Shown: one piece after another, positions 6,871 through 22,841 of the stretch
Numbering within the stretch: the stretch's first letter is position 1
Layout of the letters: each line of letters starts with the position of its first letter
DNA from: Microbacterium sp. LWO14-1.2
Lineage (GTDB): Bacteria > Actinomycetota > Actinomycetes > Actinomycetales > Microbacteriaceae
Direction of reading: 5' to 3'
Length of the DNA: 64,000 nucleotides
Assembly: GCF_038397715.1 (NCBI RefSeq)
Contig: NZ_CP151633.1
Span: forward strand, 1,178,001-1,242,000
Program-made: the position numbers and the translations under genes
Notes under the pieces: model-generated
Databases searched by the model: none
Told to the model about the DNA's origin: nothing
What the model saw: the letters and a program-made list of their open reading frames with translations, nothing else

Positions 6871-6880
6871 CTCCGAGTGA

Positions 6881-7964: not shown

Positions 7965-8022
7965 TTATTCCGAACGCTTTACTTATGTGGGGCGCTGGGT
8001 GCAGTTTCAATGAGGAGTGAAC

Positions 8023-8856: not shown

Positions 8857-9028
8857 TCTTGTGATGATCCTCATGACGTGGCTCGCCGCGTTCGTCATCG
8901 GCGGGGCGGTGCTGTACTTCGTGGTTCGCGCCGCCGTGGTGAGCGGTCTGCGTCATCACGCACTCTGGCGCGCCGACGGCAGCTACGAGATTGAACTCGA
9001 GCGCCATCGACGCGCCAACGCGGAGTAG
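8840..9028 (+). CDS. Small single-pass membrane protein
   Basis: A 62-aa protein overlapping the integrase 3' end, with GGAGG 6 bases before its ATG. One strong transmembrane helix (LVMILMTWLAAFVIGGAVLY) and a charged C-terminus (ELERHRRANAE). Function unknown. It is the last plus-strand gene and converges on the lysis genes with no visible terminator in the 3-base gap. Confidence 0.65.
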   Translation: MSATPDLVMILMTWLAAFVIGGAVLYFVVRAAVVSGLRHHALWRADGSYEIELERHRRANAE

Positions 9029-9031
9029 CGG

Positions 9032-9250
9032 TTAGCGCGGCTCGCCGGAGTCGTCCACGTAGAGCAACGCCATGATGAGCGGGAGCGCCACGGGGGACGC
9101 CGTGGCCGGAATCCATCCGGCGAACACGGCGACCCCGATGGCCGCGACGGCCACTCCGTAGGCCCATCGGCGGACGGCGGGGGTGAGTACGCGGGATGCG
9201 GTCGCGCGTGCGGCGGCGCGGCGCTCGCGTCGGGTGAGCGGTTCGGTCAT
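9032..9250 (-). CDS. Holin-like membrane protein
   Basis: A 72-aa protein with a very basic N-terminus (RRERRAAARA) and two hydrophobic segments. It is the last gene of the late operon, just after the endolysin and another membrane protein (ATGA overlap), the usual place for holins. The order holin-like gene after endolysin is typical of actinophages. Function inferred from position and topology. Confidence 0.65.
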   Translation of the reverse strand: MTEPLTRRERRAAARATASRVLTPAVRRWAYGVAVAAIGVAVFAGWIPATASPVALPLIMALLYVDDSGEPR

Positions 9251-9555
9251 GGTGTGCCTTTCTGTTGGATGGTGTCTACCCGCCGCGAGAGCGCGCGGTG
9301 GTCGGCCCGAAGTCCCCGGATGTCCTCACGGATGCCGCCGACGTCGCGGCGAAGGTCGCGGAACCATCCCCGCGTTTCGTCGTGACGGCTGTCGTTCTCT
9401 TCGCGGAAGTTCGTCTCGTGATGGTTGACGACCTGTTCTCGGGTGGCCGTCGTGTCTCGGCGGACCTTCCCGATGCGGACTCCGAGGACGCCGATCACGG
9501 CCACAAGGATCGCCTGTGTTCCGGCGATCAGCGCGAGCGCGATCGACTCGCTCAT
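9247..9555 (-). CDS. Holin-like protein with N-terminal membrane helix and coiled coil
   Basis: A 102-aa protein: one transmembrane helix (ALIAGTQAILVAVIGVLGV) followed by a charged helical region with heptad-like spacing (DLRRDVGGIREDIRGLRAD). This plan matches actinophage membrane proteins found beside endolysins. It overlaps the endolysin stop and the next gene start by ATGA. A lysis role is inferred. Confidence 0.65.
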   Translation of the reverse strand: MSESIALALIAGTQAILVAVIGVLGVRIGKVRRDTTATREQVVNHHETNFREENDSRHDETRGWFRDLRRDVGGIREDIRGLRADHRALSRRVDTIQQKGTP

Positions 9556-10232
9556 ACCGCCACGGCCTTTCGAGCGTTGGGCGGAACCTCAGCGCGGACC
9601 GACGCGGGGACGGTGAGCGCGAGCGCGGTCAGGCACGTCGCCGCCGCGTAGCGGTCCATCGCCCGTTCCGGCCCGTAACCGACCGCCCACGTGCGCCCGA
9701 CGTGCAGCCCGTCGTTCGTGAACAGGAAGCCGCTTGTGGCTTCGTTGACCAGCCACCAGCCGGGGCCTCCCCCGTTGCCGTTGTAGTCGTCCGTGATCTT
9801 CCACAGCTCCATGTGCTTTCTCCTTCTCTGAGGGCTTGCCGAAGGCCGGTTGCGGTGGTTGTCCCGACCTTCGAGGTACTTGAAGTGGTGCCGTTCGGTC
9901 GGGTCGCTGGCGTGCGTCCTGATCCATCCGTGGTCGGCGGCGAGCTCTACGAACTCCGGGTCTGTCCAGTCGTCGGAGTCCAGGCCGACCCCCGCCGTGT
10001 GGTCGGACTCGCGCGGGTGCACGGCACGCGAGTGGTTCGGCTTAGGCCCGCGTCCTGCGACCCACGCCTCCCACGCTTCGTACATGGCCATCTGGGTATC
10101 CCAGTCCGCATAGGTGCGGTTGATGTCCACGGCCCGTCCACGGTCGCTTTCGAGTCTCCGGAAGGATGCGGCGGCGGGTGGGGTGAAGGTCACGCCGGGG
10201 CGGACGGTCTCTAGGGTGGGTGCGCCGCCCAT
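9552..10232 (-). CDS. Endolysin, VanY/M15-type peptidase
   Basis: A 226-aa protein. An SxHxxGxxxD motif (Ser76, His78, Asp85) and a later ERHHFKY element with the third zinc ligand His116 identify a LAS-type metallopeptidase that cuts peptidoglycan stem peptides. The C-terminal part (from about residue 135, MELWKITDDYNG) is likely wall-binding or of unknown role. Start ATG 10232 has GGAGG 4 bases upstream and shares a base with the fibre gene stop. Confidence 0.88.
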   Translation of the reverse strand: MGGAPTLETVRPGVTFTPPAAASFRRLESDRGRAVDINRTYADWDTQMAMYEAWEAWVAGRGPKPNHSRAVHPRESDHTAGVGLDSDDWTDPEFVELAADHGWIRTHASDPTERHHFKYLEGRDNHRNRPSASPQRRRKHMELWKITDDYNGNGGGPGWWLVNEATSGFLFTNDGLHVGRTWAVGYGPERAMDRYAAATCLTALALTVPASVRAEVPPNARKAVAV

Positions 10233-11008
10233 CACGCCTCCAGTGCTTCGACTCGGGCAGTAAGGTCCGCGACGGTGGTGGCGAGTTCCTGCAGCGCTCC
10301 GATAGCGACCAGCGCCAGGCGCTCGTAATGGACGGTCTCCGGTTCCCCGTTCGCGTCGAAGTGGACGAACTCGGAGAGACCCGCGTCGATCAGTTCTTCC
10401 GCGATCACACCCACTTCGACCGGCGCGTCCTCCCAGCCCTCTCCGAAGACAGCGGCCCGGAGTCGGTAGGTCCGGAGCCGGATGCCGAGAAGGTCGCGAA
10501 CGGAGTAGGCGTGGTCGCTGATGTCCTTCTTGAACCGTCGCGCAGAGGGCGACTTACCGACCCGACCGTCGTTGTTGATGTAGGCCGCGACATAGCCGGC
10601 GGTGACCGGCGTTGCAGCGGGCGTGTACAGCTGCCCTTGCACAACGACGTTGTTCAGGTAGAGCGTGGCCGCGTTCCAGAACGCATCTACGTAACCCTTG
10701 GTGGCGACGTCGGCGGGGCCAGAGGGCGAGTTGCTCGGGATGCGGCCCGCCGCGTCATAGGAGACGACTTTGCCGACCTCCACGGACCCGAGGGCCGCGA
10801 GCACCACGCCGAGGTTGGCGCGTGCCGCTGCGGCGGTCGTAGCCCCCGTCCCGCCCTTCGCGACGGACAGCGTCGCCATGGTCCGCCGCGCGACTTCGTC
10901 GGCGAGCCGGTTGATGTATTCGTCCAGGTCGGACGCGAAGCCGGTTCCCGGTACGAGAGCGATGCCCGCCGCGAGTGCGTCGGCTCCAGGGGTCGGGGTG
11001 AGTGGCAT
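10232..11008 (-). CDS. Tail fibre / receptor-binding protein with S74 chaperone domain
   Basis: A 258-aa protein. The stretch LSVAKGGTGATTAAAARANL is a common phage fibre motif. The C-terminal third is an intramolecular chaperone of the Peptidase_S74 type, with SARRFKKDIS giving Ser155 and Lys160 at the 5-residue spacing of the autoproteolytic dyad, then GVIAEEL and a terminal coiled coil (ATTVADLTARVEALEA). Cleavage before Ser155 would release about 104 residues. AAAGGA precedes ATG 11008 by 6 bases; longer upstream frame is rejected. Confidence 0.85.
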   Translation of the reverse strand: MPLTPTPGADALAAGIALVPGTGFASDLDEYINRLADEVARRTMATLSVAKGGTGATTAAAARANLGVVLAALGSVEVGKVVSYDAAGRIPSNSPSGPADVATKGYVDAFWNAATLYLNNVVVQGQLYTPAATPVTAGYVAAYINNDGRVGKSPSARRFKKDISDHAYSVRDLLGIRLRTYRLRAAVFGEGWEDAPVEVGVIAEELIDAGLSEFVHFDANGEPETVHYERLALVAIGALQELATTVADLTARVEALEA

Positions 11009-11019
11009 GACGGTTCCTT

Positions 11020-12678
11020 TCAGAGGGCGTTGATGGTGCCGACCAGGGCGTTGATGGTCCCCGGCAGGAGGTCGATTGCTCCTGCCGGGGTGTCGGTGGT
11101 GCGGCTGGTGACAGTGACGGTGTCGGTATCGAAGTCGAACCGGAGTCGCGCACTGATGCCGGTCTGGATGGGTGTTCCCTCCAGGAGGACGGAGAGCGCC
11201 TGGTCCGTCTGCTCTGTCCAAGAGGGGATGCCGGAAACGGTGATGCTTCGCCCCTTGCCCTGCGCGCGGGTGACGATGTGTTCCGCGCGTCCGGGGCCGG
11301 GATAGGGGGTAGCGAGTTCGCGGCGGAGTACTTTCGTGGGAGTGCTGGTCAAGCTGAATGCGTCCGTGCGGGTCTGCTCGATGCCGTCGCCGTCGGTCCA
11401 GGTGTAGATGTAGACCGCGGCGTCGAACCACGTTTCGTCATCACGGGAGAGGCTTTCGTCAGCGCTCTCGATGTTCACGCCGTAGCGCCACATCTGCGCG
11501 CCCGCCGCCCGGTAGCTCTCTCCGCGCAGTGTCCAGCGACGCGCGCCGTCGCACACCAGCCGGAGACCAGCCGCCATGAGTAGTGGCTGGATGAAGTCCA
11601 TGGCGGACACACCGGCCCGCCATGTCAGCGACTCGGGACGTCGCTCGATAACCGGAACGCGCGTCGAGGTGGAGGCGTGCACAGCGGCTTGAAACTCATA
11701 GCCGTAATGCGCGTCGTCGGCCAGCCCGCCATCGAAGTACGGGATGAGTTCGGCCCCTTCGTAGAACATGGCCATCGTGGCGTAGTGAAGGTTCCCGGCC
11801 GCGTTGCCTACGGTGTTGATGTACGGGACCGCTTCGTCCGCTCCGGGCGGGCACTGCGCGATGACGTGCATGCGTCGAAACGCGGTGACGTCGGACGATA
11901 TGAACGCGCCGTATGCGGTGGCGGATGCGACTGACCCGCCCGCGCTCCACCACTGCACAGCGGCCCGCGCCTGTCGGGCGACCCCCGAGCAGAGGTAGGC
12001 GGTGAACACATACCACTTGCCGGGGGTGACGCGGTATCGCGCGGAGAGCGGGACGACGTTGGACTCTCCGGCTGCTGCGGTCCAGCTGTAGGCGGTATTT
12101 CCCACGGGCGGGAGCGGTGCGGACATCACCACGCGGGCGCCACCGGATGCCCCGGAACCTACTTGCCACGCGGCGCCATTGTTGGCCAGTCGCGCGTTCG
12201 TCACTTGGTTCGTGACTGACCAGTACGCGGTGACGTCGGCGTCCTCGGGGCCGGGGTCCAGGGTTGCGCCGATCTTGGCCAGGACGTACGCCGTCACGGC
12301 GCGGAGTGACGCTTGGTGCGCTCGTGCTCCGGCATCGTCAGTCAGCTGCGCGAAGTCTTTGAGGATCGCCTCATCGGAGGCGAGATCGACGGTGACGGTT
12401 CCGTCCGCCCGGTTCGGCGACACGGAGCGGATCCCGAGGTTGAACGTCCGGGAATTGGTGACGCTGCCGAATGCTCCGGTCGCACCGACGATGATGCGGC
12501 GGGAGTCTCGCGGGTCGAGGTCGTCCAGGAGTGCGGCGTCCTCCACGGCGAGCGTGATCGTTCCCTGGACGTGCGGAACCGCGCCCGCGTCTTGGGTGAG
12601 GTTGCCACCCGTGATCGAAAGGACAGTGCCGAGCCCTGCAAGCTCTGCGGTGTAGGTGTGCTGGCTGACGGTCGTCAT
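11020..12678 (-). CDS. Minor tail protein (hub / tail-tip, with carbohydrate-binding-like middle)
   Basis: A 552-aa protein following the tape measure and a 120-aa tail protein. The N-terminal third looks like a tail-hub domain. The middle (about 150-310, with YWSVTNQVTNARLANNG and a long beta-rich stretch) resembles a carbohydrate-binding-module-like insert. The C-terminal part again looks like hub (TWRAGVSAMDFIQPLLMAAG). It overlaps its upstream gene by ATGA. Exact family not identified. Confidence 0.75.
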   Translation of the reverse strand: MTTVSQHTYTAELAGLGTVLSITGGNLTQDAGAVPHVQGTITLAVEDAALLDDLDPRDSRRIIVGATGAFGSVTNSRTFNLGIRSVSPNRADGTVTVDLASDEAILKDFAQLTDDAGARAHQASLRAVTAYVLAKIGATLDPGPEDADVTAYWSVTNQVTNARLANNGAAWQVGSGASGGARVVMSAPLPPVGNTAYSWTAAAGESNVVPLSARYRVTPGKWYVFTAYLCSGVARQARAAVQWWSAGGSVASATAYGAFISSDVTAFRRMHVIAQCPPGADEAVPYINTVGNAAGNLHYATMAMFYEGAELIPYFDGGLADDAHYGYEFQAAVHASTSTRVPVIERRPESLTWRAGVSAMDFIQPLLMAAGLRLVCDGARRWTLRGESYRAAGAQMWRYGVNIESADESLSRDDETWFDAAVYIYTWTDGDGIEQTRTDAFSLTSTPTKVLRRELATPYPGPGRAEHIVTRAQGKGRSITVSGIPSWTEQTDQALSVLLEGTPIQTGISARLRFDFDTDTVTVTSRTTDTPAGAIDLLPGTINALVGTINAL

Positions 12679-13037
12679 GAACCGACCTCACAGAAGGGGA
12701 CTTCCAGGAGCCACGCAGAACGGCTATCCGGGTCCAGCCGGGTCCGCATGCGTCCTTCCGCCACGACGAATGACATGGCCACCTGCGGGACTTCGGGGTC
12801 GCTGAGAGTGAGCACCTGCGGAACGCGCAGCGCGCTCTCGGCGGATGCCGCTGCGGCCCCGGTCGCAAAGAGAAGGGTCAGGACACCCGAACGGAGGTCG
12901 AGCGGACGGAGAGTGATGTCCGGGTCGGGCCGCCCGATGATGCGGTGCACGCGCGTGCGTGTCTCGCTCTCCGCTTCAAAGCCGTCGACCAGGGCGGGGA
13001 CGATGGCCCCGCCGCCGTGCGTGATGGTGGTGGCCAT
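12675..13037 (-). CDS. Minor tail protein (distal-tail-like)
   Basis: A 120-aa beta-rich protein directly after the tape measure gene (stop and start overlap as TAATG) and coupled to the next minor tail gene by ATGA. Position and size suggest a distal tail or tail-tip adaptor. No diagnostic motif is recognised. Confidence 0.65.
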   Translation of the reverse strand: MATTITHGGGAIVPALVDGFEAESETRTRVHRIIGRPDPDITLRPLDLRSGVLTLLFATGAAAASAESALRVPQVLTLSDPEVPQVAMSFVVAEGRMRTRLDPDSRSAWLLEVPFCEVGS

Positions 13038-14191
13038 TACTGATCCCAGCCGTTCCCTGAGGTAACGATCCGCGCGCCGATCTTGATGGTGGTTCCGGAG
13101 AGGATGCGGAGCTTGCGGTCGACGTCAGACGTGTCCCCGTTGACGTACACGGTGGCGTTGCCGTCCGGGATGCCGTAGATCTTGCTCTCGATCGCGCTGA
13201 CGTTCTCGGTCGCCTGTCCTGTCTCAGCGTCGATGTAGATTTGCTTGCCGTCAGGGAGCGTGTAGATGCTGTCCCCGAACTCATCGACAGTGAGAGTGGC
13301 GTCCTTCGCTGCGGTTGCCTGGTCACGGAGGAAGTAGGACATGGTGTCCACGGCGGTCGCGCCGTCCCGCTGCGCCTGGACGTGCCGGTTGAATGCGTCG
13401 GTGGCCTTGTTGACTTCGACCTCCAGCGGAGTGAGTGAGCCCACCGTTCCGCCGTTCGCCTGAGCGAGTTCCTGCGCCGCCTGAGCATCCTTCGCCGCCG
13501 CATCGCGCTTGCGGTCCAGGGCGGCGGCTACCTCATCGAGAGCGGCGGGCGATCCCGCCATGGCCGCAACTGCGGTCTCTTCGGCGACTCCCCAAAGGCG
13601 TGCGTTCTCCGTGACTTCCGCGTGCTGGTTGCTCAGAATCTCCAGCCCCTTCGCGACGATGGTCGCGGTGGAGAGCACCTTGGAACCCTCTTCGAGGTAG
13701 GTGTTGGCCCATTCGTTGGTGAGCGCCTGAAGCTCTTCCTGCGCCTCTTGGACGTTCTCGAACCCGGCCACTGCCAGTCCGATACCAGCTGCCGCCGCCA
13801 GGCCCGCGACAGCGCCAGCGGGACCGAACCCGGCGAAGGCGTTGGCGGCGATTTCCTGGAGTGCGTCGGCGATGGACTCGGCGGAACCGTCGAAGGATGC
13901 GGCGGCTTCGCGGGCGGTGCTGTTGGCTTCGTCGGCGAACTCTTCTGCGCCGTCTGATGCCTTGTCGAAGGACTGTTTAGCGCCGTCGCCGATCTTGCGG
14001 ACAGCGTCGTCGGCGCGTCCGGCTGAGCGGACCATGTCGCGGAAGGAGGCTTCGAGCTTGTCGCCCGCTTTGTCGCCGTCACGCGTGATGTCCTCCAGCG
14101 CGTCGGCTGTGTCGTCCAGCGCCTTGGAGAGGTCTTTGACATCGCGTTGCGCGGCTCGGGAATTGGCGGCGATGTCGATGGTGAGGGCCAT
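13037..14191 (-). CDS. Tape measure protein (short)
   Basis: A 384-aa protein with a long alpha-helical, Ala-rich charged N-terminal half (RDVKDLSKALDDTADALED), a hydrophobic central segment (AGAVAGLAAAAGIGLAVAG) and a beta-rich C-terminus. ATG 14191 is coupled to the upstream stop (TAATG). At the usual ratio of about 0.15 nm of tail per residue the tail would be under 60 nm, consistent with the tiny genome. Confidence 0.85.
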   Translation of the reverse strand: MALTIDIAANSRAAQRDVKDLSKALDDTADALEDITRDGDKAGDKLEASFRDMVRSAGRADDAVRKIGDGAKQSFDKASDGAEEFADEANSTAREAAASFDGSAESIADALQEIAANAFAGFGPAGAVAGLAAAAGIGLAVAGFENVQEAQEELQALTNEWANTYLEEGSKVLSTATIVAKGLEILSNQHAEVTENARLWGVAEETAVAAMAGSPAALDEVAAALDRKRDAAAKDAQAAQELAQANGGTVGSLTPLEVEVNKATDAFNRHVQAQRDGATAVDTMSYFLRDQATAAKDATLTVDEFGDSIYTLPDGKQIYIDAETGQATENVSAIESKIYGIPDGNATVYVNGDTSDVDRKLRILSGTTIKIGARIVTSGNGWDQ

Positions 14192-14700
14192 TACTCCTGC
14201 TTCCCTTCGAAGGCTGTGGCGATGGTGCGCACGGTGGTCTGTACCCACAGGCGCGCCATTCGCGGGATCATTTCTTTGGCGGCGGGGAAGAACACGTAGC
14301 CGCTGCTGTTGCGCGGTTTCATGGCCGTTGCAGCCCGTCTCGTGACTTCGTGCGTTCCGCCCTTGCGGCTCTTGCGTCGGTAGGTGGTGCGCCGGTCGCG
14401 GTCAGCGCCGAACTCCGTGGCGTGATAGTCCGTCTTGGGGTTGAATCCCCCCGTGAGGGGACGCCCCTTGCCCGCCGACTGGATGCGCACGTTCTGATCG
14501 GAGACCGACACGACGGCGGTGTCCACGATGACGCGGTGCTCCAGTCGGGTATCGGCCCGCTCTGACAGGGCTTTCTTCCACTCGGGACCGGCGACGCGCT
14601 TCGTCTGCTGGCGGTTGAGCTTGGCAATCGTCCGATCCAGTGAACGGATGGCATAGATCGCCGCGAGGAGTTCTCGCGAAGCTCTCACGTCTAAACGCAT
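14191..14700 (-). CDS. Tail protein of unknown role, between major tail protein and tape measure
   Basis: A 169-aa basic protein with an Arg/Lys-rich middle (TTYRRKSRKGGTHEVTRRA). Its place is that of tail assembly chaperones, but no slippery sequence or second overlapping frame was seen. It may instead be an HK97 gp10-like neck protein in an unusual place. Confidence 0.7.
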   Translation of the reverse strand: MRLDVRASRELLAAIYAIRSLDRTIAKLNRQQTKRVAGPEWKKALSERADTRLEHRVIVDTAVVSVSDQNVRIQSAGKGRPLTGGFNPKTDYHATEFGADRDRRTTYRRKSRKGGTHEVTRRAATAMKPRNSSGYVFFPAAKEMIPRMARLWVQTTVRTIATAFEGKQE

Positions 14701-14718
14701 CGCCGGTCCCGTTCGGGC

Positions 14719-15126
14719 CTACGCGCCGATGACGGGCTGGCCCGCAACTTCGAACGTGACCGACGCCTCCGGCACGGTGTCGATGTCGCCGCCGATGCTG
14801 GCGGGTACGAGAAGGATGGTGGCGGTGACCGTCGCCCCTCCGGCGATGGGATCGAACGTCATCACCACGGACTCTCCGGGAGTCGCGCTGTGGAGGCGCT
14901 TGGAGAGACTGGCCGCGGAGGCGATGTCCTGCGCGAACGTGATCGTTGCCGTCCACTCGGGGTCTCCGAAGAACCGGAACCGGGACGTCGGGGTGAGGCC
15001 GCGCCACTTGATGACGGGCGTGGTCGGGTCGAAACGGATCGTGCGAAGCGCTGCTTCGTAGGTGTCCGTTCCGATGCCACACGTGACGTTCTTCAGGACG
15101 AACGGGGCGGCTGCGATGTTGGCCAT
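14719..15126 (-). CDS. Major tail protein
   Basis: A 135-aa beta-rich protein with a strong ribosome binding site (AAAGGAGTAACCACC before ATG 15126), as expected for an abundant structural protein. It sits between the neck genes and the tape measure. Assigned by position, size and expression signal; short for the family, fitting the minimal phage. Confidence 0.75.
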   Translation of the reverse strand: MANIAAAPFVLKNVTCGIGTDTYEAALRTIRFDPTTPVIKWRGLTPTSRFRFFGDPEWTATITFAQDIASAASLSKRLHSATPGESVVMTFDPIAGGATVTATILLVPASIGGDIDTVPEASVTFEVAGQPVIGA

Positions 15127-15131
15127 GGTGG

Positions 15132-15503
15132 TTACTCCTTTGAGGCGATGACGGTGAACGGGATGTCGTAGGCGAGACGCGCGCCGTAGCCGACTGCGGT
15201 GGCGTCGTCGTGGCTGTAGCGGGCGTCGAGGTAGTCGAGGGTGGCGGTGACGATGTCGTCCAGCTGGTCCCCTGCGCGGTCCAGGTCCAGGTGCGGGGAG
15301 ATGAGGGTGACCAGGAGTCCGACGTTGCGGTGAGACAGCGGCGCTTGCGGGGTCAGGGCGAAGCTCTTCCCCCGGATGAGCGCGGTGGGGACGGTGATGT
15401 CGTCCAGCTCGCGTTCGGTCGCGATGACGCGGACCCCGGCGAGTTCGGCGATGTCCGCCCAGTCCGCTTTCAGCTGCGTCTCGATCTCCTTGCGCACGCT
15501 CAT
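15132..15503 (-). CDS. Neck / tail terminator-like protein
   Basis: A 123-aa protein (MSVRKEIETQLKADW) coupled by ATGA to the head-tail connector upstream and followed by the major tail protein. Size, fold impression (helix, then beta strands around TLISPHLDLDRA) and order fit a tail-terminator (gpU-like) protein. Confidence 0.7.
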   Translation of the reverse strand: MSVRKEIETQLKADWADIAELAGVRVIATERELDDITVPTALIRGKSFALTPQAPLSHRNVGLLVTLISPHLDLDRAGDQLDDIVTATLDYLDARYSHDDATAVGYGARLAYDIPFTVIASKE

Positions 15504-16132
15504 GCGATCACTCCCACGGCGCGGCGCGGGCGCAGAAGCTGCTGGACCTGCCAGTCGAGCGGGAAGGCGGTGATGCCGTAGCCGCTGCCATCCATGTCTC
15601 CGCCCGGCGAAGCCTTCGCCGAGTTGTAGAGGTTGCGGGCCTGGAGCGCCTGAGCGAGCACCCACGAATCGGGGATGCCGTCGCCGGGCACGGGGTCGCC
15701 GACCCACTGCGCGGTGATCGTCTCGCCCGCTGCGATCTGCCCCGAGTAGGACGCGCCGATGCCCCCGAGTGCAGGGACGTCGTTGATGGTGAGTACGGCG
15801 GTCGGCGCGTCCGGCGAGTTGTACTCCAGGACGCGCACCGTCCCGGCCGGGAGGAACGTGGCCGGGAGAGGGCGAATCACCGTCGATGCCGCGCCCCCGC
15901 TGCTGGTGAGAACGCCGGTGATGACGTCACCCTCTCGGGTGAGGCGAAGGGTGTAGCCGGTCGGCCAGGTGAGGGTGACCGGCGCGTACCCGGTGGGGAT
16001 GAGTTCGGGGGCGTAGGCGAGACACGCGTCCTTCGCGGCGCTCAGGAACAGGTTCGCGACCGCGTCGTCCATCGGGACATCGGGCCACAGAACCTGGAGT
16101 TCCGTGTCGTCGGCGGTGAGCCACGTTGCCAT
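15500..16132 (-). CDS. Head-tail connector with large internal insertion
   Basis: A 210-aa protein. Residues 1-45 (DDAVANLFLSAAKDACLAYAP) and 152-210 (PDSWVLAQALQARNLYN, AFPLDWQVQQLLRPRR) match the two halves of a gp6-like connector. Between them lies about 105 residues of beta-rich sequence (about 47-151) not found in ordinary connectors, possibly an exposed decoration domain. Follows the capsid gene by 20 bases. Confidence 0.75.
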   Translation of the reverse strand: MATWLTADDTELQVLWPDVPMDDAVANLFLSAAKDACLAYAPELIPTGYAPVTLTWPTGYTLRLTREGDVITGVLTSSGGAASTVIRPLPATFLPAGTVRVLEYNSPDAPTAVLTINDVPALGGIGASYSGQIAAGETITAQWVGDPVPGDGIPDSWVLAQALQARNLYNSAKASPGGDMDGSGYGITAFPLDWQVQQLLRPRRAVGVIA

Positions 16133-16152
16133 GTCGTCTACGCCCCCGAGTC

Positions 16153-17736
16153 TCAGGCCGCGACCGTGACGGAGCGGATCGCCTGCGCGTTGTTCGCGAG
16201 GGTCGCCCAGTAGCCGAACACGGCGATGTCCTCCGCGCCGTTGCCCGGCTGGACGCCGTCCACGCGGATCGGGGTCTCGCCGAGTTCGTAGTACGTCAGC
16301 GCTTCCTTCGCGCCCACGAACACCTTGCCCGCGCCGACCGCTGCGGGCATGAGCTTGAACCCGGCCATGTCGCCCTCTTCGAGACCGAACCCGGCGTTCA
16401 GGAACGCGAGCACATCGTCCTTGGGGGTGAGGACGATGTCGCGCCACAGGGCCGGGTCAATGAGCGCGAACGCGGGGCGGTTCTCGGTGGCGATGACGCC
16501 GAGTGCGCCGTCCACGACGGCGGCCAGTCCCTTGGCGATGCCAGCGGGCACGGTGCCGGGGGCGGTGACGGTGCCAGCGGCCATGATGGCGGCGAGCACC
16601 TTGCCGTCCGTCTTGCGCTTGTAGTCCTCGGCCTGGTTCACGAGGTAGCTCGCGATCACGCTCTGGTCGTTGAAGTCGCGGAAGCGGCGGTCGAGCCGGT
16701 GGCCTCCGGCGAGACGCGCGGCGGTGACGTCCACCGGCTCGGTGTCGAGGGCGTTGGACGGCACCTCCTGGGTGTTGCCCGCGTAGTCGGCGACCTCGGG
16801 GCGCTTGCCCTCCACCCAGCGCCAGCCGCGCATCGTGTAGTTCGTCAGCGTGGCCTGGTCCACCAGGGGGACGAACCGGCGCTGGTAGGGCGCACGGGTC
16901 CAGAGCTCGCCGAGGTAGCCGGTCTCCTGTGTGTCCGCTCCGATGGTGACCGTGGTGGGTCCGGACTGCTGCACCGTCTGGAGGGCGAAGAGTTCACCCG
17001 CTGCGGCGTAGGGGGCCAGGCTGTCCGCGTCGTTGCGCGTGAGCGCCGCGAACAGGCCTTCGAGGGTGGGGCGGGGCGTGGTGGTGGCCACGGTGCCGTC
17101 CGGGACGATGTTTCCCATGAGTGCTTCCTTTTCCTTGTCGGGGTCAGTGCCGGGTGCCGGGGCGGCTTCCGGGTCTTTCGCGGTCAGGCCGTTGAGGGCG
17201 TCGGTCAGGGTGGCGAGGTCGCCGCGGAATCCGGCGATGGCTTCGGCGAGGGTGTCGCTGGCTTCGTCGGCCAGAGCCTCCGGCGCGATGGCGAAGAGAC
17301 CGGCTCCGGCGAACGCGCCTTCCGTGACCGTGGCCGCTCCCGTGAGGCGTGCCTTGATCGCCTTGGCTCCGTCGCGGACGAAGTCGGTGACCTCGGCGGA
17401 CAGCTTGCTCAGTGCGCCGGGCTTGGGCTTGCCGTTCGCGTCGATGTTGTCGCGGAGGTAGTCGTTGCCTTCGTCGGTGTCGGCCACCCGGAACTCGGAG
17501 TAGACGCCCGTGGCACGCTTCTCCAGGAACGTGGCGCGCCCGATGGGGTCGTGCCGGTTGTGGTTCCGGTTGAGGGTGATGACGTCGGGGTCGCGCGGGA
17601 GGTCGATGTTGTCCGCGCCGAACATCACCGGTTCCGTCTGGGAAACGCTGGTGCGGGAGAGTTCGCCGAACGGGAGCAGAATGCCCCGGATGGTGCGCGT
17701 GGTGGGGTCGTAGGAGAAGTCGCCGTGCTCGGTCAT
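16153..17736 (-). CDS. Fused capsid maturation protease, scaffold and major capsid protein
   Basis: A 527-aa fusion. Residues about 1-160 are a prohead protease with the catalytic His in NRNHNRHDPIGRAT and Ser in SKLSAEVTDF. Residues about 160-206 form a helical, Ala/Pro-rich scaffold-like linker (DTLAEAIAGFRGDLATL). From about 207 on it is an HK97-fold major capsid protein. Strong AGGAGG site before ATG 17736, which overlaps the portal stop (ATGA). An internal ribosome site and ATG at 17118 could give free capsid protein. Such fusions are known in the smallest actinophages. Confidence 0.88.
   Translation of the reverse strand: MTEHGDFSYDPTTRTIRGILLPFGELSRTSVSQTEPVMFGADNIDLPRDPDVITLNRNHNRHDPIGRATFLEKRATGVYSEFRVADTDEGNDYLRDNIDANGKPKPGALSKLSAEVTDFVRDGAKAIKARLTGAATVTEGAFAGAGLFAIAPEALADEASDTLAEAIAGFRGDLATLTDALNGLTAKDPEAAPAPGTDPDKEKEALMGNIVPDGTVATTTPRPTLEGLFAALTRNDADSLAPYAAAGELFALQTVQQSGPTTVTIGADTQETGYLGELWTRAPYQRRFVPLVDQATLTNYTMRGWRWVEGKRPEVADYAGNTQEVPSNALDTEPVDVTAARLAGGHRLDRRFRDFNDQSVIASYLVNQAEDYKRKTDGKVLAAIMAAGTVTAPGTVPAGIAKGLAAVVDGALGVIATENRPAFALIDPALWRDIVLTPKDDVLAFLNAGFGLEEGDMAGFKLMPAAVGAGKVFVGAKEALTYYELGETPIRVDGVQPGNGAEDIAVFGYWATLANNAQAIRSVTVAA
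17116..17136 (-). promoter_or_regulatory. Internal ribosome binding site and in-frame ATG for free major capsid protein
   Basis: Inside the fused gene, on the minus strand, AAGGAAAAGGAAG is followed after 5 bases by an in-frame ATG at 17118 (codons for M-G-N-I). Initiation here would give a 321-aa product lacking protease and scaffold, close to a normal mature capsid protein length. The placement exactly at the domain border makes chance less likely. Confidence 0.5.
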
Positions 17737-18827
17737 GCTGCTGCCTCCTGAGGCGTGGGTGTGGTGGCGCGGGCGGACGCGCCGTGGGTGTCGTTCGGGG
17801 TGGCGGTGAGGTTGGACCGGTTGAGGCGGATGACCTTGGCCTTGTTGCCGGTCACGTCCTCCTGAGTCAGGCGGGCTTCGAACGGCGCGATCCAGTACTC
17901 GAGGTCGTCGATGATCTGGTTTCGGGTGCCTTCCTGCGTGACGTAGGTGAGGCTGCTGGTGGCGGTGGAGCCGTCGAGGTACGAGACGGGCAGGTTCATC
18001 TGGTTCGCGATGTCGATGCGGGCGGCGTTGCGCCCGTTGTCGAACAGGTCGGCTTCGACTTCGCCATAGACTTCGAGGTCGAGGCTGGCGGGCAGGAAGC
18101 CGACTGCGCCGTTCTCGCTGGTGCGAGCGTTGGACCAGGCCGTCACCTGCGCCGTGGCTTCGGCCTGGTTGACGCCGTTGGCTTCCTTCTCGTGAAGGAC
18201 GATGAGCGGGATAGGGTTGCGGACGCGACCGACCCACGCGCGCTCCATGTAGCGCCAGCCCCGGATCGCATCGCGTGCGGTGATGAGGAGTCCGTCGTCG
18301 GGACCGGCGAAGAGGATCACGGACTTGTCGTCGGTGACGGGGTGCTGGTCGATGGATACGCCGGTCGGGGACGCGGTGTCGAAGGTCCAGCGGTGGCGAG
18401 CGAGCCGGGCCGCGTCGGTGATCTTCCCGGCTTCGTCGCGCTGCACGATCCAGAGGGACCAGCCGGTGAAGATCACGTCGTCCAGCGACCAGGCGAAGCG
18501 GTGCCAGCACGTCTGAGGCGTCTGGGTCGAGGTGAGCCATGCGGGCTGCTCGGGGTCGGCGATGAACTCTCCGTCGACCTCTTCGCCCTGCTCGAACACC
18601 AAGTCGGCCAGACGTCCGACGATGACCGCTCGCCCGCGCTTGATGGGCGAGACGGTCATGGCGCTTTCGCGGGTGACGGCGTCCAGGCCGGTCGGCCCGT
18701 AGATGTCGGAGTAGACCAGCGCGGCCAGCTCGGGGGTGGGAGCGAAGGGAGGGATGATCGCGCCGGATGCGAGGACGTTGCCCGCCGATGCGGGAGGGCC
18801 GAACAACAGGCGCGAGAACCAGGACAT
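17733..18827 (-). CDS. Portal protein
   Basis: A 364-aa portal. Recognisable blocks are the N-terminal MSWFSRLLFGPPAS, the central DVIFTGWSLWIVQRDEAG, and the C-terminal ANQMNLPVSYLDGSTATSSLTY typical of actinophage portals. It forms the DNA entry ring of the capsid. No ribosome binding site precedes ATG 18827; a TTGACA promoter ends just upstream, so translation may be leaderless. It lies between terminase and the capsid fusion. Confidence 0.88.
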   Translation of the reverse strand: MSWFSRLLFGPPASAGNVLASGAIIPPFAPTPELAALVYSDIYGPTGLDAVTRESAMTVSPIKRGRAVIVGRLADLVFEQGEEVDGEFIADPEQPAWLTSTQTPQTCWHRFAWSLDDVIFTGWSLWIVQRDEAGKITDAARLARHRWTFDTASPTGVSIDQHPVTDDKSVILFAGPDDGLLITARDAIRGWRYMERAWVGRVRNPIPLIVLHEKEANGVNQAEATAQVTAWSNARTSENGAVGFLPASLDLEVYGEVEADLFDNGRNAARIDIANQMNLPVSYLDGSTATSSLTYVTQEGTRNQIIDDLEYWIAPFEARLTQEDVTGNKAKVIRLNRSNLTATPNDTHGASARATTPTPQEAAA

Positions 18828-18835
18828 GTCGAGAA

Positions 18836-18864
18836 CGGTAAGCGGCCGATTTGTAGGATGTCAA
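18836..18864 (-). promoter_or_regulatory. Candidate promoter for portal and late structural genes
   Basis: In the 62-base gap between terminase and portal, on the minus strand, a perfect TTGACA (18859-18864) is followed after 17 bases by TTACCG (18836-18841), a weak -10. The predicted start falls at or near the portal ATG (18827), which lacks a ribosome binding site. Confidence 0.4.
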
Positions 18865-18872
18865 CAAGACCC

Positions 18873-18881
18873 TGTGGATAA
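18873..18881 (-). promoter_or_regulatory. Perfect DnaA-box sequence (TTATCCACA)
   Basis: TTATCCACA on the minus strand matches the consensus DnaA box exactly, inside the terminase-portal gap. A single box is weak evidence for function; it could recruit host DnaA to phage DNA or be chance. Confidence 0.35.
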
Positions 18882-18889
18882 CTTTGTAG

Positions 18890-20629
18890 CTACCCCATAA
18901 CGATCGGCTCGAACGCGTCCGCGACGGTCGGGTCCGGGAGCTTATAGAACGCGGCGGCGCACGCCTCCAGAGGCGTGATGTCGAACGCCGGATCGGAGGC
19001 GGGCGAGCCGAAGAGAACGGCCTTTCCGGAGGTCCGCTTGACGGCTCCAGCTGCGGCCTTGTCTAGTGGCCCCTGTTCCCAGTGGCGGACGTCGCCGTGG
19101 CGCAGTCCGTTGATGAGCTTCGTGTGGGCCACGCTCTTCTCACCGAAGCGGATCATGGTTGCCTGTGGCCGGGGCCGGGCGTCCCGGTTCAGTTCCTGGA
19201 TGATGGACTTCTCTTGCGGGGAATCGTCGTAGACGATCGGTAGCCGGAGCTGCTTCCAGTACTTCCAGAGGGTGGCCGCCATCCGGGCGTTGCCCTCCTG
19301 GTGGTGGATGATCTTGACGCCGACGCGGGGCGCTTGGTCGTCGTCGCCGTCGAGCGCCCATGCGGCGCGGGCGAAGTCGCCGCCTTCGTCGGGCAGGTAC
19401 CACGCGACCGCGATGGATGCCCAGAGTCCGCCCGGGTGGACGGCGAAGGCGAGCGAGAGCGGGGTGACTCCGGTGGGGAGCGCGCCGCGTTCGGTCGTCT
19501 CGCCCCACTCCGAGCCGATGACGGTGTCGTTGCCGGTCGCCTTGCCGAAGTGTCCGAGGTACTCCATGCCGAAGCGGAGCGGGCCGAGGATCGGGAAGTT
19601 CTGGCGGATGATTGACAGCTTCGTGAGGCCGTCCAGGCCGGGGTGCCACTGCTCGATGAGCGCTCCGGCCCCAGCCTCCCAGGAGTCCAACTGCTTCTCA
19701 TCGATGTCATCCGGGACGCCGTAGCGGATGCGGCCCGCTGCGGGGTTGTGGAGCGTGGCCCAGAAGTGCGAGCCATCGCGGTACTTGCCGCCCGTCCCCG
19801 CATAGATCAGCTGCGCGCCGGGGCGGGTGTCGAAGGAGGGGATGACAGCGCCGACGATGTCGTCCCACATCTCGGGTTCCGCTTCGCCCGCTTCGTCCAG
19901 GACCAGGATGTCGTATGCGCCGGAGCGGACGTCATCGCCGTTCGGCGAGAGGATCGCGAGCTTCGAGCCGTTGGCGAACTCGATGCCGAGGGAGCCGTTG
20001 GACTCCATGAGCTTGACGCCCATGACCTTCTCGCGATGCGGCTTGTCGCGCCACTTCCGGGTGATGGGGTCGCGCACGTCGAGCTTGAAGCGCTCGCCCG
20101 CTTTCTTCGCGGTGGTGAGCATCGTGTACCCGGCCATGTAGACCGCGCGCATCCAGCATCGCCCGAGAAGGATGCACCACAGGCTGGTGGTCTTGGAGGA
20201 TCGGCGCGGCTCCAGCACGGCGTTCAGGAAGCTACCGTCGTCATCGGCGATGTCGTCCGGGTCGAGCGGACCACCGGTCCCGAGAACGTCGGCGGTTCGG
20301 AGCATCTGCGGCTGGAGGTTGCCGAGCAGTCCCCCGGCGACGATGCGGCGCGGCACGAGTTCGTTGATGATCCATGCGCCGACCAGGAACTCCGCTCGCG
20401 CCTGGTAGCTGGTGTGCAGCGCCGAGGCGTCGAGGGGATCGCGGCCCGAGTCGCGAAGCTCCACCCATGCGGCCTCATCGAGTAGAGGATGTTCGAACAC
20501 TTCTTCCGGTAGCTCCAGCCCGGCCCAGTCCAGGGGGGGGATTTCGCTGCCGGAGGCGGTAGTGGTGGCGACGTCTCTCAAAGAACCGGCTTCGCTTTCT
20601 TCGAACGTTGGTGCGATCAGATTGGCCAT
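18890..20629 (-). CDS. Terminase large subunit
   Basis: A 579-aa packaging motor. The ATPase part has a variant Walker A (EPRRSSKTTSLW) and a clear Walker B (YDILVLDEAGEAE); the C-terminal half carries the nuclease-like region with YDDSPQEKSIIQELN. ATG 20629 overlaps the HNH gene by 13 bases. No small terminase subunit is recognised; one of the small upstream genes could fill that role. Confidence 0.9.
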   Translation of the reverse strand: MANLIAPTFEESEAGSLRDVATTTASGSEIPPLDWAGLELPEEVFEHPLLDEAAWVELRDSGRDPLDASALHTSYQARAEFLVGAWIINELVPRRIVAGGLLGNLQPQMLRTADVLGTGGPLDPDDIADDDGSFLNAVLEPRRSSKTTSLWCILLGRCWMRAVYMAGYTMLTTAKKAGERFKLDVRDPITRKWRDKPHREKVMGVKLMESNGSLGIEFANGSKLAILSPNGDDVRSGAYDILVLDEAGEAEPEMWDDIVGAVIPSFDTRPGAQLIYAGTGGKYRDGSHFWATLHNPAAGRIRYGVPDDIDEKQLDSWEAGAGALIEQWHPGLDGLTKLSIIRQNFPILGPLRFGMEYLGHFGKATGNDTVIGSEWGETTERGALPTGVTPLSLAFAVHPGGLWASIAVAWYLPDEGGDFARAAWALDGDDDQAPRVGVKIIHHQEGNARMAATLWKYWKQLRLPIVYDDSPQEKSIIQELNRDARPRPQATMIRFGEKSVAHTKLINGLRHGDVRHWEQGPLDKAAAGAVKRTSGKAVLFGSPASDPAFDITPLEACAAAFYKLPDPTVADAFEPIVMG

Positions 20630-20937
20630 GATGTCTCTTGCTTCGTCGGGACGTTGATGTGCTTGCGGCTGTTGGTGATGGCTGCGCCCTGCCGTCCTCC
20701 TGCGGATCGGTTGCCGACGCATCCGCCCGTGCGGTGTCGGTGCTCAGGTGCTAGCTCGTGCAGTGCGGAGCCGAGCGCGCCGGGCAGGTGGCCGACGTCG
20801 AACGGCTGGCCAGGTGCGATAGGTCGACGGCAGCGCCAGCACGCGACATCCCGTCCGGCGCTGTGTGCTGCGCGCACACGGCCCCGGATCACCGACGCGT
20901 TGCGTCGGTACTCGGCTGTCTGATGCTTGGCGCTCAT
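20617..20937 (-). CDS. HNH endonuclease
   Basis: A 106-aa protein with CWRCRRPI, the DVGHL catalytic-His strand, and LAPEHRHRTGGCVGNRSAGG, the layout of small phage HNH nucleases with a structural zinc. Such genes lie beside the terminase in many cos-type phages and help packaging cleavage. It overlaps the terminase start. Confidence 0.85.
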   Translation of the reverse strand: MSAKHQTAEYRRNASVIRGRVRAAHSAGRDVACWRCRRPIAPGQPFDVGHLPGALGSALHELAPEHRHRTGGCVGNRSAGGRQGAAITNSRKHINVPTKQETSWPI

Positions 20938-20940
20938 GGC

Positions 20941-21231
20941 TCAGTGACGCCCGTTGGCGAAGCGACCGATGTAGATGGCCCGGTCCGTGAGCATGTTCTC
21001 TGCCGCGTTGATGAACGCTCGCGCGGCGTCCAGGTACTCCGGCCCGTCTTCGACAAGGCGCGTGCGCGCCCCGTCCAGCGTCCGCGCCGCGTCGTTGAGC
21101 GACCGTGCGGTGTCGCGGAGCCCTAGCCCCTTCGCTTCGGTGCGGAGGTCGCGCGCCGAGTCCACCAGCGTGGTGAGCCGGTTGATCGTGTGGCGGCACG
21201 CGTGAGCCTCCGACGTCGTCATGGCGCTCAT
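20941..21231 (-). CDS. Small helical phage protein of unknown function
   Basis: A 96-aa, predicted all-helical, charged protein (SLNDAARTLDGARTRLVED) between a membrane protein gene and the HNH gene, overlapping the former by ATGA. No family recognised. Its place just upstream of HNH and terminase makes it a candidate small terminase subunit, without motif support. Confidence 0.65.
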   Translation of the reverse strand: MSAMTTSEAHACRHTINRLTTLVDSARDLRTEAKGLGLRDTARSLNDAARTLDGARTRLVEDGPEYLDAARAFINAAENMLTDRAIYIGRFANGRH

Positions 21232-21506
21232 CGGTCCAGCCCGTCCGGGCAGATGCCACAGTCACACGGCCCCTGGTGCTCGTAGGGTCGGGCGCACAAG
21301 TGGAGCCGACCTCCGGTCACCCATGCGCGGGCGCACTCGCCACTGCTGGCCATCGACACGGCCCTCTCAGCGGCAACGACGGCATCCGCTGCGTATGCGC
21401 GTTCCAGGCGCTTCCGCTCGCGAAGGTCGAATGTGATCCAGAGGGCCAGGATCAGGACGAAGAGGATCGCGACCCAGAGAGCCGGGATCGAGTCAGGAGC
21501 GGGCAT
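21228..21506 (-). CDS. Small membrane protein with cysteine-rich C-terminus
   Basis: A 92-aa protein: one transmembrane helix near the N-terminus (ALWVAILFVLILALWITF), then a helical region and a C-terminal cluster of cysteines (CARPYEHQGPCDCGICPDG). It overlaps neighbouring genes at both ends. Function unknown. Confidence 0.65.
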   Translation of the reverse strand: MPAPDSIPALWVAILFVLILALWITFDLRERKRLERAYAADAVVAAERAVSMASSGECARAWVTGGRLHLCARPYEHQGPCDCGICPDGLDR

Positions 21507-21663
21507 GGTGAGCGCCTTTCGTGAATGCTGCGAGTTGTTCAGGTGTGTAGTCGGGGCCGGGTCGCCATTCGTCTCCGGCGAAGCTCATGAGGCGTCCGTC
21601 GTCGCGTAGCTGGCAGTCCTGGCACCAGCCGGACACCGGATCGAATCGATGGATGTGACTCAT
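21493..21663 (-). CDS. Short phage protein with CxxC motif
   Basis: A 56-aa frame (MSHIHRFDPVSGWCQDCQLR, ending TKGAHHARS) that fills the gap between the membrane protein gene and the helix-turn-helix gene and overlaps the former by 14 bases. It resembles short actinophage proteins with a single CxxC and a DEWRPGPDY segment. No strong ribosome site, so moderate confidence. Confidence 0.55.
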   Translation of the reverse strand: MSHIHRFDPVSGWCQDCQLRDDGRLMSFAGDEWRPGPDYTPEQLAAFTKGAHHARS

Positions 21664-21687
21664 TGGTCTTTTCGCTTTCTCGCGCGT

Positions 21688-22128
21688 TTAGGTACGTGAG
21701 GTAGGAGAGAGAGTCTTGGTAGGAGGTTCATGGACGGTTCTTAGTGCGACACCAGTTGTCACCCCTGAAGGCCCGTGGCTGTCACCCCTGGATTCGGAAG
21801 GGGTGACACGGTTGTCACCCCTGGATTCGGAGTACTGGAGCGCCCACGTCATGACGTCGTAGACGGTCGGGCGATAGCGAGGGTCGAGGTGCTGGACGTA
21901 GCTCTGATCGCCTTCGCGGATGAGCCCTTCGGCGAGCAGTTCGCGGATGGCCCGCTGGACGGTGCGAGTCGAGCACTCCAGCGTCTCGGCGATGTTGGCC
22001 AGCTTCGGATACGCGCCATAGCCGAGTTCGTCGGCGCGGTCAGCGAGTTTCAGGAGCACGCGGTGCGCCGTGCCGTTGCACCGGCTCAGCGGCAGGTCAG
22101 CGGCCCAGATGTAGGCGTTGAGACTCAT
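21688..22128 (-). CDS. Helix-turn-helix protein, possible replication initiator or early regulator
   Basis: A 146-aa protein. Residues 1-90 form a winged helix-turn-helix (TAHRVLLKLADRAD, then IAETLECSTRTVQRAIREL) of the type seen in phage and plasmid replication or regulatory proteins. The C-terminal 40 residues are low-complexity (SESRGDNRVTPSESRGD) because the DNA there is an iteron-like repeat cluster. ATG 22128 is preferred over an in-frame TTG at 22140. It is the first gene of the long leftward operon. Confidence 0.75.
   Translation of the reverse strand: MSLNAYIWAADLPLSRCNGTAHRVLLKLADRADELGYGAYPKLANIAETLECSTRTVQRAIRELLAEGLIREGDQSYVQHLDPRYRPTVYDVMTWALQYSESRGDNRVTPSESRGDSHGPSGVTTGVALRTVHEPPTKTLSPTSRT
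21756..21831. repeat. Iteron-like cluster: four copies of TGTCACCCCT
   Basis: Direct copies of TGTCACCCCTG begin near 21757, 21780 and 21813, and one inverted copy lies at 21799-21808. The second and third direct copies extend identically through GGATTCGGA. They lie in the 3' end of the helix-turn-helix gene, as iterons often do relative to replication initiator genes, so this may be the phage replication origin or a binding array for that protein. Confidence 0.55.
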
Positions 22129-22132
22129 CCGG

Positions 22133-22224
22133 CAATCCAATTCGTATTGATCACGTCAGGAGTCAATCCAAACCGGATTGACACGCCGGTATTGATCGCG
22201 GCGTGTTGAATAATCCAGTTCGTA
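22133..22224. promoter_or_regulatory. Divergent early control region with repressor-like operators
   Basis: A perfect palindrome TCAATCC-AAACC-GGATTGA (22163-22181) lies midway between the leftward and rightward operons. Its ends merge into outward-facing -35-like hexamers, TTGACT on the minus strand (22161-22166) and TTGACA on the plus strand (22178-22183). Related sequence AATCCARTTCGTA occurs at 22134-22146 and 22212-22224. The array probably binds the phage repressor and shuts both promoters. The -10 boxes are not clear. Confidence 0.6.
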
Positions 22225-22237
22225 GTAGAGTCGCCAC

Positions 22238-22471
22238 ATGGCAGGCGAATACACCACGGAAGACTTGGTCGGAGATCACCATCTCCAGACGGGGAACACT
22301 GGCGGACTCATCGACGGCAACACGCTCGCGGGCCGCGCCGAGGCCCGCCCGGCCTTCTGGGGCTTCTGCGCGCACTGCGGATGGAAGGTCGGCGGGCACG
22401 ACACAACGCGGGCTGTCAAGCGAGCCTACGAACGCCATCTCAAGGCAGCTGCACGGAAGGAAGCACGATGA
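22238..22471 (+). CDS. Small phage protein upstream of the repressor
   Basis: A 77-aa protein with a FCAHCGWKVGGHD segment (possible zinc ribbon) and a basic helical C-terminus (AVKRAYERHLKAAARKEAR). First gene of the rightward operon; its stop overlaps the repressor ATG by ATGA, so the two are co-expressed. Function unknown. Confidence 0.7.
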   Translation: MAGEYTTEDLVGDHHLQTGNTGGLIDGNTLAGRAEARPAFWGFCAHCGWKVGGHDTTRAVKRAYERHLKAAARKEAR

Positions 22472-22803
22472 ACGCTGACGAAATCACCGGCGAGCTTGTA
22501 CACCTGGCGATGCGACGCCGACGCGTGACTCAGTCCGCGTTGGGCGAAGTGCTGGGGATCACTCAGCCCGCGATGGGTAAGAAGCTTTACGGCCAGCGCA
22601 GCTGGACTATCGATGAGGTCTTGGCCGTCGCCAAGTACTTCGAAATGCCCGTGACTGAGCTGCTTCCGGGCGAGGACTACCAGCCGATCCCCGAGGGCCG
22701 TGGTCGCGTTAACGCAGAAACGGCCTCCACCGAAGTGGAAGCCGTTTCGTCACTGTCTCAACACAGTGTGCGCCCGAAGGGACTCGAACCCCTAACCTTC
22801 TGA
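22468..22803 (+). CDS. Phage repressor (integrated, 111-aa form) with attR inside its 3' end
   Basis: An XRE-type repressor: helix-turn-helix at residues about 20-42 (TQSALGEVLGITQPAMGKKL), helical support region to about 67, then a linker. Residues 101-111 (VRPKGLEPLTF) are encoded by the 36-bp attachment core, i.e. antisense tRNA sequence. The stop TGA (22801-22803) uses host DNA for its last base. In the excised phage this codon is TGT and the protein continues for 38 residues to 149 aa. It probably maintains lysogeny by binding the operators at 22133-22224. Confidence 0.88.
   Translation: MNADEITGELVHLAMRRRRVTQSALGEVLGITQPAMGKKLYGQRSWTIDEVLAVAKYFEMPVTELLPGEDYQPIPEGRGRVNAETASTEVEAVSSLSQHSVRPKGLEPLTF
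22717..22748. terminator. Hairpin inside the repressor gene, possible replacement terminator for tRNA-Arg
   Basis: Arms GAAACGGC (22717-22724) and GCCGTTTC (22741-22748) plus an inner 5-bp stem TCCAC/GTGGA around a CGAA loop. On the minus strand it lies 21 bases downstream of the tRNA 3' end. Integration displaced the original terminator to 6845-6870, so this phage hairpin may end tRNA transcription. It also encodes repressor linker residues. Confidence 0.5.
22767..22802. repeat. Right attachment site core (36-bp direct repeat)
   Basis: Identical to 6881-6916. It covers the tRNA-Arg 3' end through the 3' half of the anticodon stem, and simultaneously encodes the last codons of the repressor. 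Bases outside the repeat differ immediately on both sides, so 36 bp is the exact extent. Confidence 0.95.
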
Positions 22804-22841
22804 TCCGTAGTCAGATGCTCTATCCATTGAGCTACGGGCGC
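22769..22841 (-). tRNA. tRNA-Arg (anticodon ACG)
   Basis: A 73-base cloverleaf without encoded CCA: acceptor stem GCGCCCG/CGGGCGC, D-arm GCTCAATGGATAGAGC, anticodon stem TCTGA/TCAGA with loop CTACGGA (anticodon ACG), T-arm AGGGGTTCGAGTCCCTT. The 3' half from the attachment core was supplied by the phage, restoring a complete gene after integration. Confidence 0.97.

Follow-up and report, generated by a model that had tools for sequence, protein, structure and literature searches.

Does the length of a phage repressor, and with it immunity, depend at this locus on whether the phage is integrated into the bacterial chromosome? We analysed a window of 64,000 nucleotides from Microbacterium sp. 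LWO14-1.2, to which all positions below refer, and in which a sequence-only reading had placed an attachment core in frame at the 3' end of a repressor gene. The prophage measures 15,886 bp, counted from the start of one core copy to the start of the other. The longest run common to both ends is 36 bp, TGTGCGCCCGAAGGGACTCGAACCCCTAACCTTCTG, found in identical copies at 6881-6916 and 22767-22802. Since ARAGORN locates a tRNA-Arg at 22768-22841 on the minus strand, the core corresponds to the 3' end of this tRNA and host DNA resumes at 22803. By the evidence of ARAGORN and the repeat, attB lies at the tRNA 3' end and the tRNA is restored. The elements that delimit the prophage, with two of its genes, are as follows.

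6881..22802, no strand: prophage between the core copies (36-bp direct repeat, tRNA-Arg at the right copy, phage family matches)
6881..6916, plus: attL core, a copy of the tRNA-Arg 3' end, antisense to the tRNA on this strand
22767..22802, plus: right core copy, from repeat comparison
22768..22841, minus: host tRNA-Arg (anticodon ACG), intact, restored by integration (ARAGORN)
18890..20722, minus: terminase large subunit (phrog_9, E 5.6e-9), 35% identical to the terminase of PensacolaC28, a Microbacterium phage with a virion genome of 16,749 bp (PP978844)
21688..22140, minus: divergent gene, replication-initiation-like (phrog_1032, E 1.8e-18), on the far side of the candidate operators described below

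Profile scans yielded family matches to terminase, portal, major head, major tail, tail-fibre-like, replication-initiation-like and tyrosine integrase proteins, the Pfam portal and capsid scores being below their cut-offs. The protein at 9552-10235 reads to us as endolysin-like, in this case without a family match. At the DNA level, a megablast of 9000-22700 against phages matched no isolated phage. The same genome harbours a second prophage of about 16 kb in a tRNA-Lys gene (G000:C1, about 274,121-290,221; L218/L219), which has a related integrase and a two-form repressor of its own (99/121 aa in the frame examined).

The repressor gene runs in frame through the right core copy. Its 111-aa lysogen form ends RPKGLEPLTF, encoded up to TTC-TGA, and the A of the stop codon is host base 22803, so that the bacterial side of the junction makes the prophage stop. 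The left core copy is followed by T, which gives TGT, a Cys codon, in place of TGA. When repressor and core were joined in silico to the sequence from 6917 onward, the frame extended to 149 aa, ending NVSGVAL (CFGDTDPFWTADRALTLAGIWCQLELDAEIANVSGVAL); its stop, TGA at 7029-7031, shares bases with the GTG at 7028 where the next gene starts. The attP junction is predicted to read CTTCTG-TTTCGGAGAC, with the core inside the repressor coding sequence, and the natural long forms of relatives agree.

22468..22803, plus: repressor, lysogen form, 111 aa, BetR/HTH (PF08667, E 4.7e-7, over the cut-off; phrog_4583 transcriptional repressor, E 2e-11)
6917..7031, plus: 38-residue tail of the long form (in silico join; counterparts in proteins P0005, P0009 and P0010 and in PensacolaC28 gp20)
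7028..7288, plus: 86-aa HTH protein whose GTG overlaps the long-repressor stop (phrog_686 HTH DNA binding protein), 60% identical to PensacolaC28 gp19
8017..8856, plus: tyrosine integrase, 279 aa (PF00589, E 1.3e-19; phrog_1, E 5.7e-38)

Homologues of the 7028-7288 gene come after the long repressor in several relatives. The core coordinates, the in-frame position, the host-completed stop and the 149-aa joined form that the sequence-only reading had given were all right to the base. A 77-aa ORF at 22238-22471, situated between candidate operators and repressor and overlapping the start of the latter (ATGA), matched no PHROG family.

The integrase gene lies downstream of the repressor on the same strand, 985 bp away with further ORFs between, and the order in the joined form is repressor, core, integrase. 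PF00589, at residues 123-261 of 279, was the only domain found, and an arm-type binding domain would have little room at the N-terminus; the protein terminates in AADVRYA. In a search of wider genome contigs, the best 80 of 211 were led by Rothia at 55% identity and Plantibacter at 49%, followed by values of 38% or less. No recombination directionality factor was recognised in a non-exhaustive scan of the prophage ORFs.

These parts suggest the following course of events. In the free phage the repressor would run through the core and end 38 codons later as a 149-aa protein, its stop overlapping the start of the next gene. The integrase, encoded further along the same strand, would recombine the core with the tRNA-Arg 3' end, and integration would supply the host-completed stop, yielding a stable short repressor where the long phage form would be short-lived. 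By analogy with the BPs system, the long form would be unstable or inactive, the short form would repress, and immunity would follow integration. Repressor, HTH gene and integrase are presumably transcribed together. The long form ends GVAL and the integrase VRYA, to be compared with the host tmRNA tag AETKRNDFALAA and its end ALAA; the GVAL end is only loosely ssrA-like, and degradation of the long form is what the analogy would predict. We rejected an ssrA-like -LAA end as a general feature of long forms: only P0008, P0023 and the predicted long form of G151 have a plain CYGLAA end, and as 7 of the 18 long forms predicted in the census below end in Arg, the classic -LAA tag is not general there.

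Repression would be exerted at paired candidate sites between the divergent operons.

22133..22149, plus: candidate operator CAATCC-N5-GGATTG with one mismatch; a similar pair lies upstream of the G241 repressor
22164..22180, plus: candidate operator CAATCC-N5-GGATTG, exact; likewise paired upstream of the G241 repressor

Two such matches arose by chance in 37 of 100 shuffles of the window and in 18 of 200 of L146. This expectation is not negligible, so the argument rests on the position and spacing (31 and 32 bases) that the window and G241 share.

Natural proteins of both lengths were found among relatives. The 149-aa form, searched against 5.8 billion proteins, gave 24 matches, 12 of which stop at GLEPLTF like the lysogen form (one being the window's own protein) while 12 run past it; because the query was the long form, this ratio is not a frequency. 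Residues identical to the predicted tail number 25/38 in P0005, 24/38 in P0009 and 21/38 in P0010, and all three continue CFGDT. P0013 (139 aa) and P0020 (102 aa) represent a single repressor at two lengths, identical at 96 of 102 common positions. The closest repressor, P0002 (80% identical, named Microbacterium sp. Leaf320), equals the sequence of G241, a genome of the window's genus, bar one leading Met. Searched alone with E up to 10, the 38-aa tail found two phage records, one at E 8 and the other, gp20 of PensacolaC28, at E 5e-5. The sequence-only reading had proposed looking in related phages for a 149-aa homologue with the same C-terminus; natural proteins do carry the predicted junction, and the gp20 tail matches.

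Further searches widened this set of relatives. The family of the 7028 gene had matches in 35 of 398 genomes, and among 12 loci examined, L254 has a core and an FW tail. A search of gp20 against viral contigs yielded no confirmed match. BonaeVitae, over its whole record, has a repressor of 75-76 aa and no annotated integrase, with no tRNA-Arg core in the examined stretches; Noelani also has a repressor of 75-76 aa, with no integrase in 11 of its 25 features and no tRNA-Arg core in the examined stretches.

How general the arrangement is in the genus was addressed by a census. The integrase was sought in 366 genomes (E up to 1e-30) and found at 38 places in 37 genomes, of which 34, all except G041, G273, G313 and G151:C166, were examined, mostly up to 20 kb on each side. 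An att pair was accepted at 26 of the 34. The eight places without one (G140, G311, G248, G191, G011, G068, G326 and G355) include some cut by contig ends, and the repeats at G011 and G355 were not accepted. For G196, where the right copy could be either of two, we took the 14.7-kb one. Twenty of the 26 elements, 15.4 to 18.0 kb in size, reside in tRNA-Arg (13), tRNA-Lys (5) or tRNA-Asn (2). We scored a switch where the repressor frame stops no more than 4 codons past the core in the lysogen and at least 15 codons further on at the joined attP, thresholds that were chosen after the first att-joining results had been seen.

By this measure 19 of the 20 prophages in tRNA-Arg, -Lys and -Asn possess the switch (18 of the 18 first tested, plus G357). 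Only one of the three frames could qualify in 18 of these 19, and two could in G256; the product of the frame chances is 5e-9, a value that ignores the kinship of the phages. The positives display at least five geometries and both core orientations, and the lysogen stops among the first 18 are TGA (8), TAA (7) and TAG (3). Each of their 18 repressors matches an HTH family (E 0.01 or better), 17 of them above a curated cut-off and G217 not. Among elements with related integrases in tRNA-Gly (G078, G082, G287 and G196) and tRNA-Leu (G309 and G205), none of 18 frames qualified.

The twentieth prophage, G211, fails as computed, and its core copies (L215/L281, 13,456-13,520 and 29,337-29,401) differ at one base. 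Depending on this base the repressor reads TAG or TGG, and a working switch would hinge on where the crossover falls: left of the mismatch, forms of 80 and 151 aa result, and right of it there is no switch.

Two smaller kinds of element also surfaced. The tRNA-Gly element of G082 (L196:18424 to L197:7974) contains two integrase-family ORFs together with proteins resembling a primase and an excisionase, and a scan of 8 ORFs gave no match to a structural family; it is possibly a phage satellite, and similar-sized att pairs (8-10 kb) occur in G078 and G287. L149 (G151:C175) is an element of about 1.4 kb with att copies 1,357 bp apart and a two-form repressor of 95/112 aa, the long one ending CYGLAA; we read it as a decayed prophage, a satellite or an assembly effect.

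Core orientation and adjoining modules vary among these phages. The core is read in the tRNA sense in G323, G270, G065, G211 and PensacolaC28, and in the four prophages among these, tRNA or trailer bases supply the lysogen stop. The phages of G270 and G323 carry the host trailer plus two extra bases, and the frame is thereby shifted past the trailer's TGA. In L036, L037 and L038, other HTH domains are joined to the near-identical end NAETA(S/P)TE(V/A)EAV(S/P)SLSQHSVRPKGLEPLTF, the integrases of the L036 and L037 contigs being 87-88% identical to that of the window. The NAETA...SLSQHSVRPKGLEPLTF end is tRNA-proximal DNA, and the same sequence stands beside the tRNA in genomes of the genus in which the frame at that place has no recognisable HTH.

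On the other side of the core, FW follows it in 10 of 18 tails, and G137 and G065 have FW-IVGCQ-PD in common despite opposite core orientations. The long-form stop overlaps a possible start codon in 16 of 18 cases (10 GTGA, 5 ATGA and 1 TTGA). Across 20 tail pairs, dN/dS runs from 0.26 to 1.15: the window gives 0.29 with PensacolaC28 (33 codons, Fisher p 0.006) and 0.34 with G133 (35 codons, p 0.012), and others are near 1, such as window-G272 at 1.15 and L254-PensacolaC28 at 0.94. The excess at third positions is weak, with p at 0.12 for window-G133 and at 0.043 when four pairs are pooled. A DNA dyad, TGTCAGG...CCTGACA, also falls on part of the conserved tail. The case for purifying selection on the tail peptide is weakened.

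Dyads like TGTCAGG-N3-7-CCTGACA occur in the tails of G323, G272, G137, G065, G270, PensacolaC28 and L254, just before the next gene, and may be a regulatory site or a terminator. The dyad is degenerate in the window, and G241 has a similar one in an extra ORF after the tail.

For the small Microbacterium phages as a group we tentatively propose, at somewhat less than an even chance, that the core acts as an in-frame cassette that can be swapped, set between an HTH module that varies and an FW-type tail that is conserved. Such cassettes would be exchanged among tRNA-Arg, -Lys and -Asn sites in both orientations and in different frames, with the lysogen-only stop rebuilt from host bases each time. 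The tail would then be a new instability or inactivation signal and not an ssrA mimic, and immunity specificity would shuffle while the switch stays.

Two hairpins accompany the window's core copies.

22717..22748, minus: stable hairpin inside the repressor frame (RNA fold in the tRNA direction, z -6.3 for 22705-22770)
6841..6874, minus: hairpin on the host side of attL (RNA fold, z -6.0 for 6836-6885; similar sequence at the G241 attL)

The tRNA-proximal end described above forms the first hairpin, and its strength in the tRNA direction makes it probable that the phage carries a tRNA terminator within its repressor gene; the second is probably the original terminator of the tRNA. Hairpins also occur inside the repressor ORFs of the Curtobacterium phage Barebow and of PensacolaC28. 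Scans of 21900-22900 for terminators and for sigma-70 promoters returned none.

Other readings of these data deserve consideration. Open frames are common in antisense tRNA sequence, LEPLTF-stop is also read in several genomes whose tRNA-side frame has no recognisable HTH, and G211 would have no switch if its crossover falls right of the mismatch; the repressor might then merely run into the att site, with two lengths that are equally active. Such fortuitous read-through is very improbable, as 19 of 20 prophages in tRNA-Arg, -Lys and -Asn both truncate and extend the protein, through at least five geometries and three stops, against 0 of 18 frames in the tRNA-Gly and -Leu elements; moreover, tails are found again behind other HTH modules, and there are natural long forms. 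We give still less credence to a prophage in decay, with its att site in a gene fragment by chance and no working switch today: such decay would fit the megablast, but the att copies are identical over 36 bp, the integrase, terminase, portal and capsid frames are open, and protein relatives reside in prophage contigs of about 16 kb and in a virion genome.

More serious, if still unlikely, is a stable long form that acts differently, its tail altering DNA binding or partners or coupling translation to the next gene, with no proteolysis. Many tails do have a common FW-containing core rather than an ssrA-like end, the overlap of 16 of 18 long-form stops with a possible start codon would suit coupling, and for BPs an A135E form is reported to give a modest rise in Prep activity. 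Both BPs forms, however, are reported to bind DNA alike and the long one to be inactive through degradation, and the CYGLAA ends of P0008, P0023 and predicted G151 are close to the ALAA end of the host tmRNA tag. The switch might instead be partly transcriptional, with in-frame hairpins cutting the repressor mRNA and so giving non-stop messages or limiting integrase expression. We rate this as quite improbable: strong hairpins do lie in the repressor ORFs of the window, Barebow and PensacolaC28, and the tails of G270 and G323 have dyads with a T run behind them, yet the window's hairpin is upstream of the core and so present in both forms, its T run is only three bases long, and the terminator scan was empty.

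A BPs-type integration-dependent repressor switch is very probably the best explanation of the locus. The two-form repressor that the sequence-only reading had postulated is well supported by the anatomy of the locus, the genus census, the natural long forms and PensacolaC28. At the level of sequence one can read the two repressor forms, the stop made by the host, the tRNA site, and relatives that occur naturally in either length. Among the delimited prophages of about 16 kb with related integrases in another actinobacterial genus, this switch, which has been studied chiefly in mycobacteriophages, is the rule. The same outcome is reached there with different tRNAs, stops and orientations, so that the role of the long-form tail can be tested by comparison. 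The compact phages and their integrases are also on offer for Microbacterium genetics. In the open-access literature, covered largely as listings, neither the switch in Microbacterium phages nor a sense-oriented core was found in print.

The logic of the switch is not new; it is that of the published integration-dependent immunity of BPs, host-made stop included. Broussard et al. 2013 is reportedly its original description. BPs gp33 (136/103 aa) and the repressor of Angel, which we take to be a cluster G phage, resemble the window in having attP within the repressor gene, a tRNA-Arg attB, the same core reading and a Cys codon replaced by a stop. Angel reads the core as RPEGFEPPTFC in its 136-aa repressor, and its integrase is 48% identical to that of the window. 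Unlike BPs and Angel, the window's prophage has another HTH domain, a tail without a clear -AS or -LAA end and a probable tRNA terminator in the ORF. It also differs in size (15.9 kb as against 41.4 kb in Angel) and in the extra ORFs between repressor and integrase, which overlap in Angel. In BPs the host base adjoining the core turns the Cys codon into a stop (PMC9262239).

The sequence-only reading erred in calling the phage far smaller than the known examples, and we reject exceptional smallness for this immunity system. Published cases are the Gordonia CW phages GMA5, GRU3, Jeanie and McGonagall, of 17.1-17.7 kb and with this immunity type (PMC5559632), and prophages of Bifidobacterium, about 18 kb in size, in which the viral repressor is predicted to be 18 residues longer and to have an ssrA-like tag (PMC6109161). 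Gordonia phage SallySpecial (15,896 bp) has, in our reading, a tRNA-like core inside its annotated immunity repressor. By published description, GMA5 resembles the window in an ORF between repressor and integrase, whereas the CW phages differ in their tRNA-Lys att site and their repressors. Mycobacterium abscessus prophages use different reading frames through one core (PMC9934374).

Barebow (18,292 bp, PQ868957) provides the best integrase match, at 50.7%, and a 133-aa HTH protein with the tRNA-Arg core (34/36) and a hairpin in frame; it differs in the HTH and in the tail, which ends RRAS, and its integrase begins 64 bp further on. The paper on PensacolaC28 calls the phage lytic and does not mention the repressor/att arrangement (PMC11895466). 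This phage is described as forming clear plaques, and its integrase is annotated as two genes (L247:13009-13885) while the long-form repressor is kept, possibly after a recent loss of lysogeny. Its gp20 is a 137-aa HTH repressor-like protein with a tRNA-Arg core and the tail FWTDERAISL...WCQVEPDTEI...GVE (pattern FWT-ER...WCQ-E-D-EI). The gp20 core is read in the tRNA sense and its HTH domain is another one, but its stop overlaps gp19, the counterpart of the window's 7028 gene.
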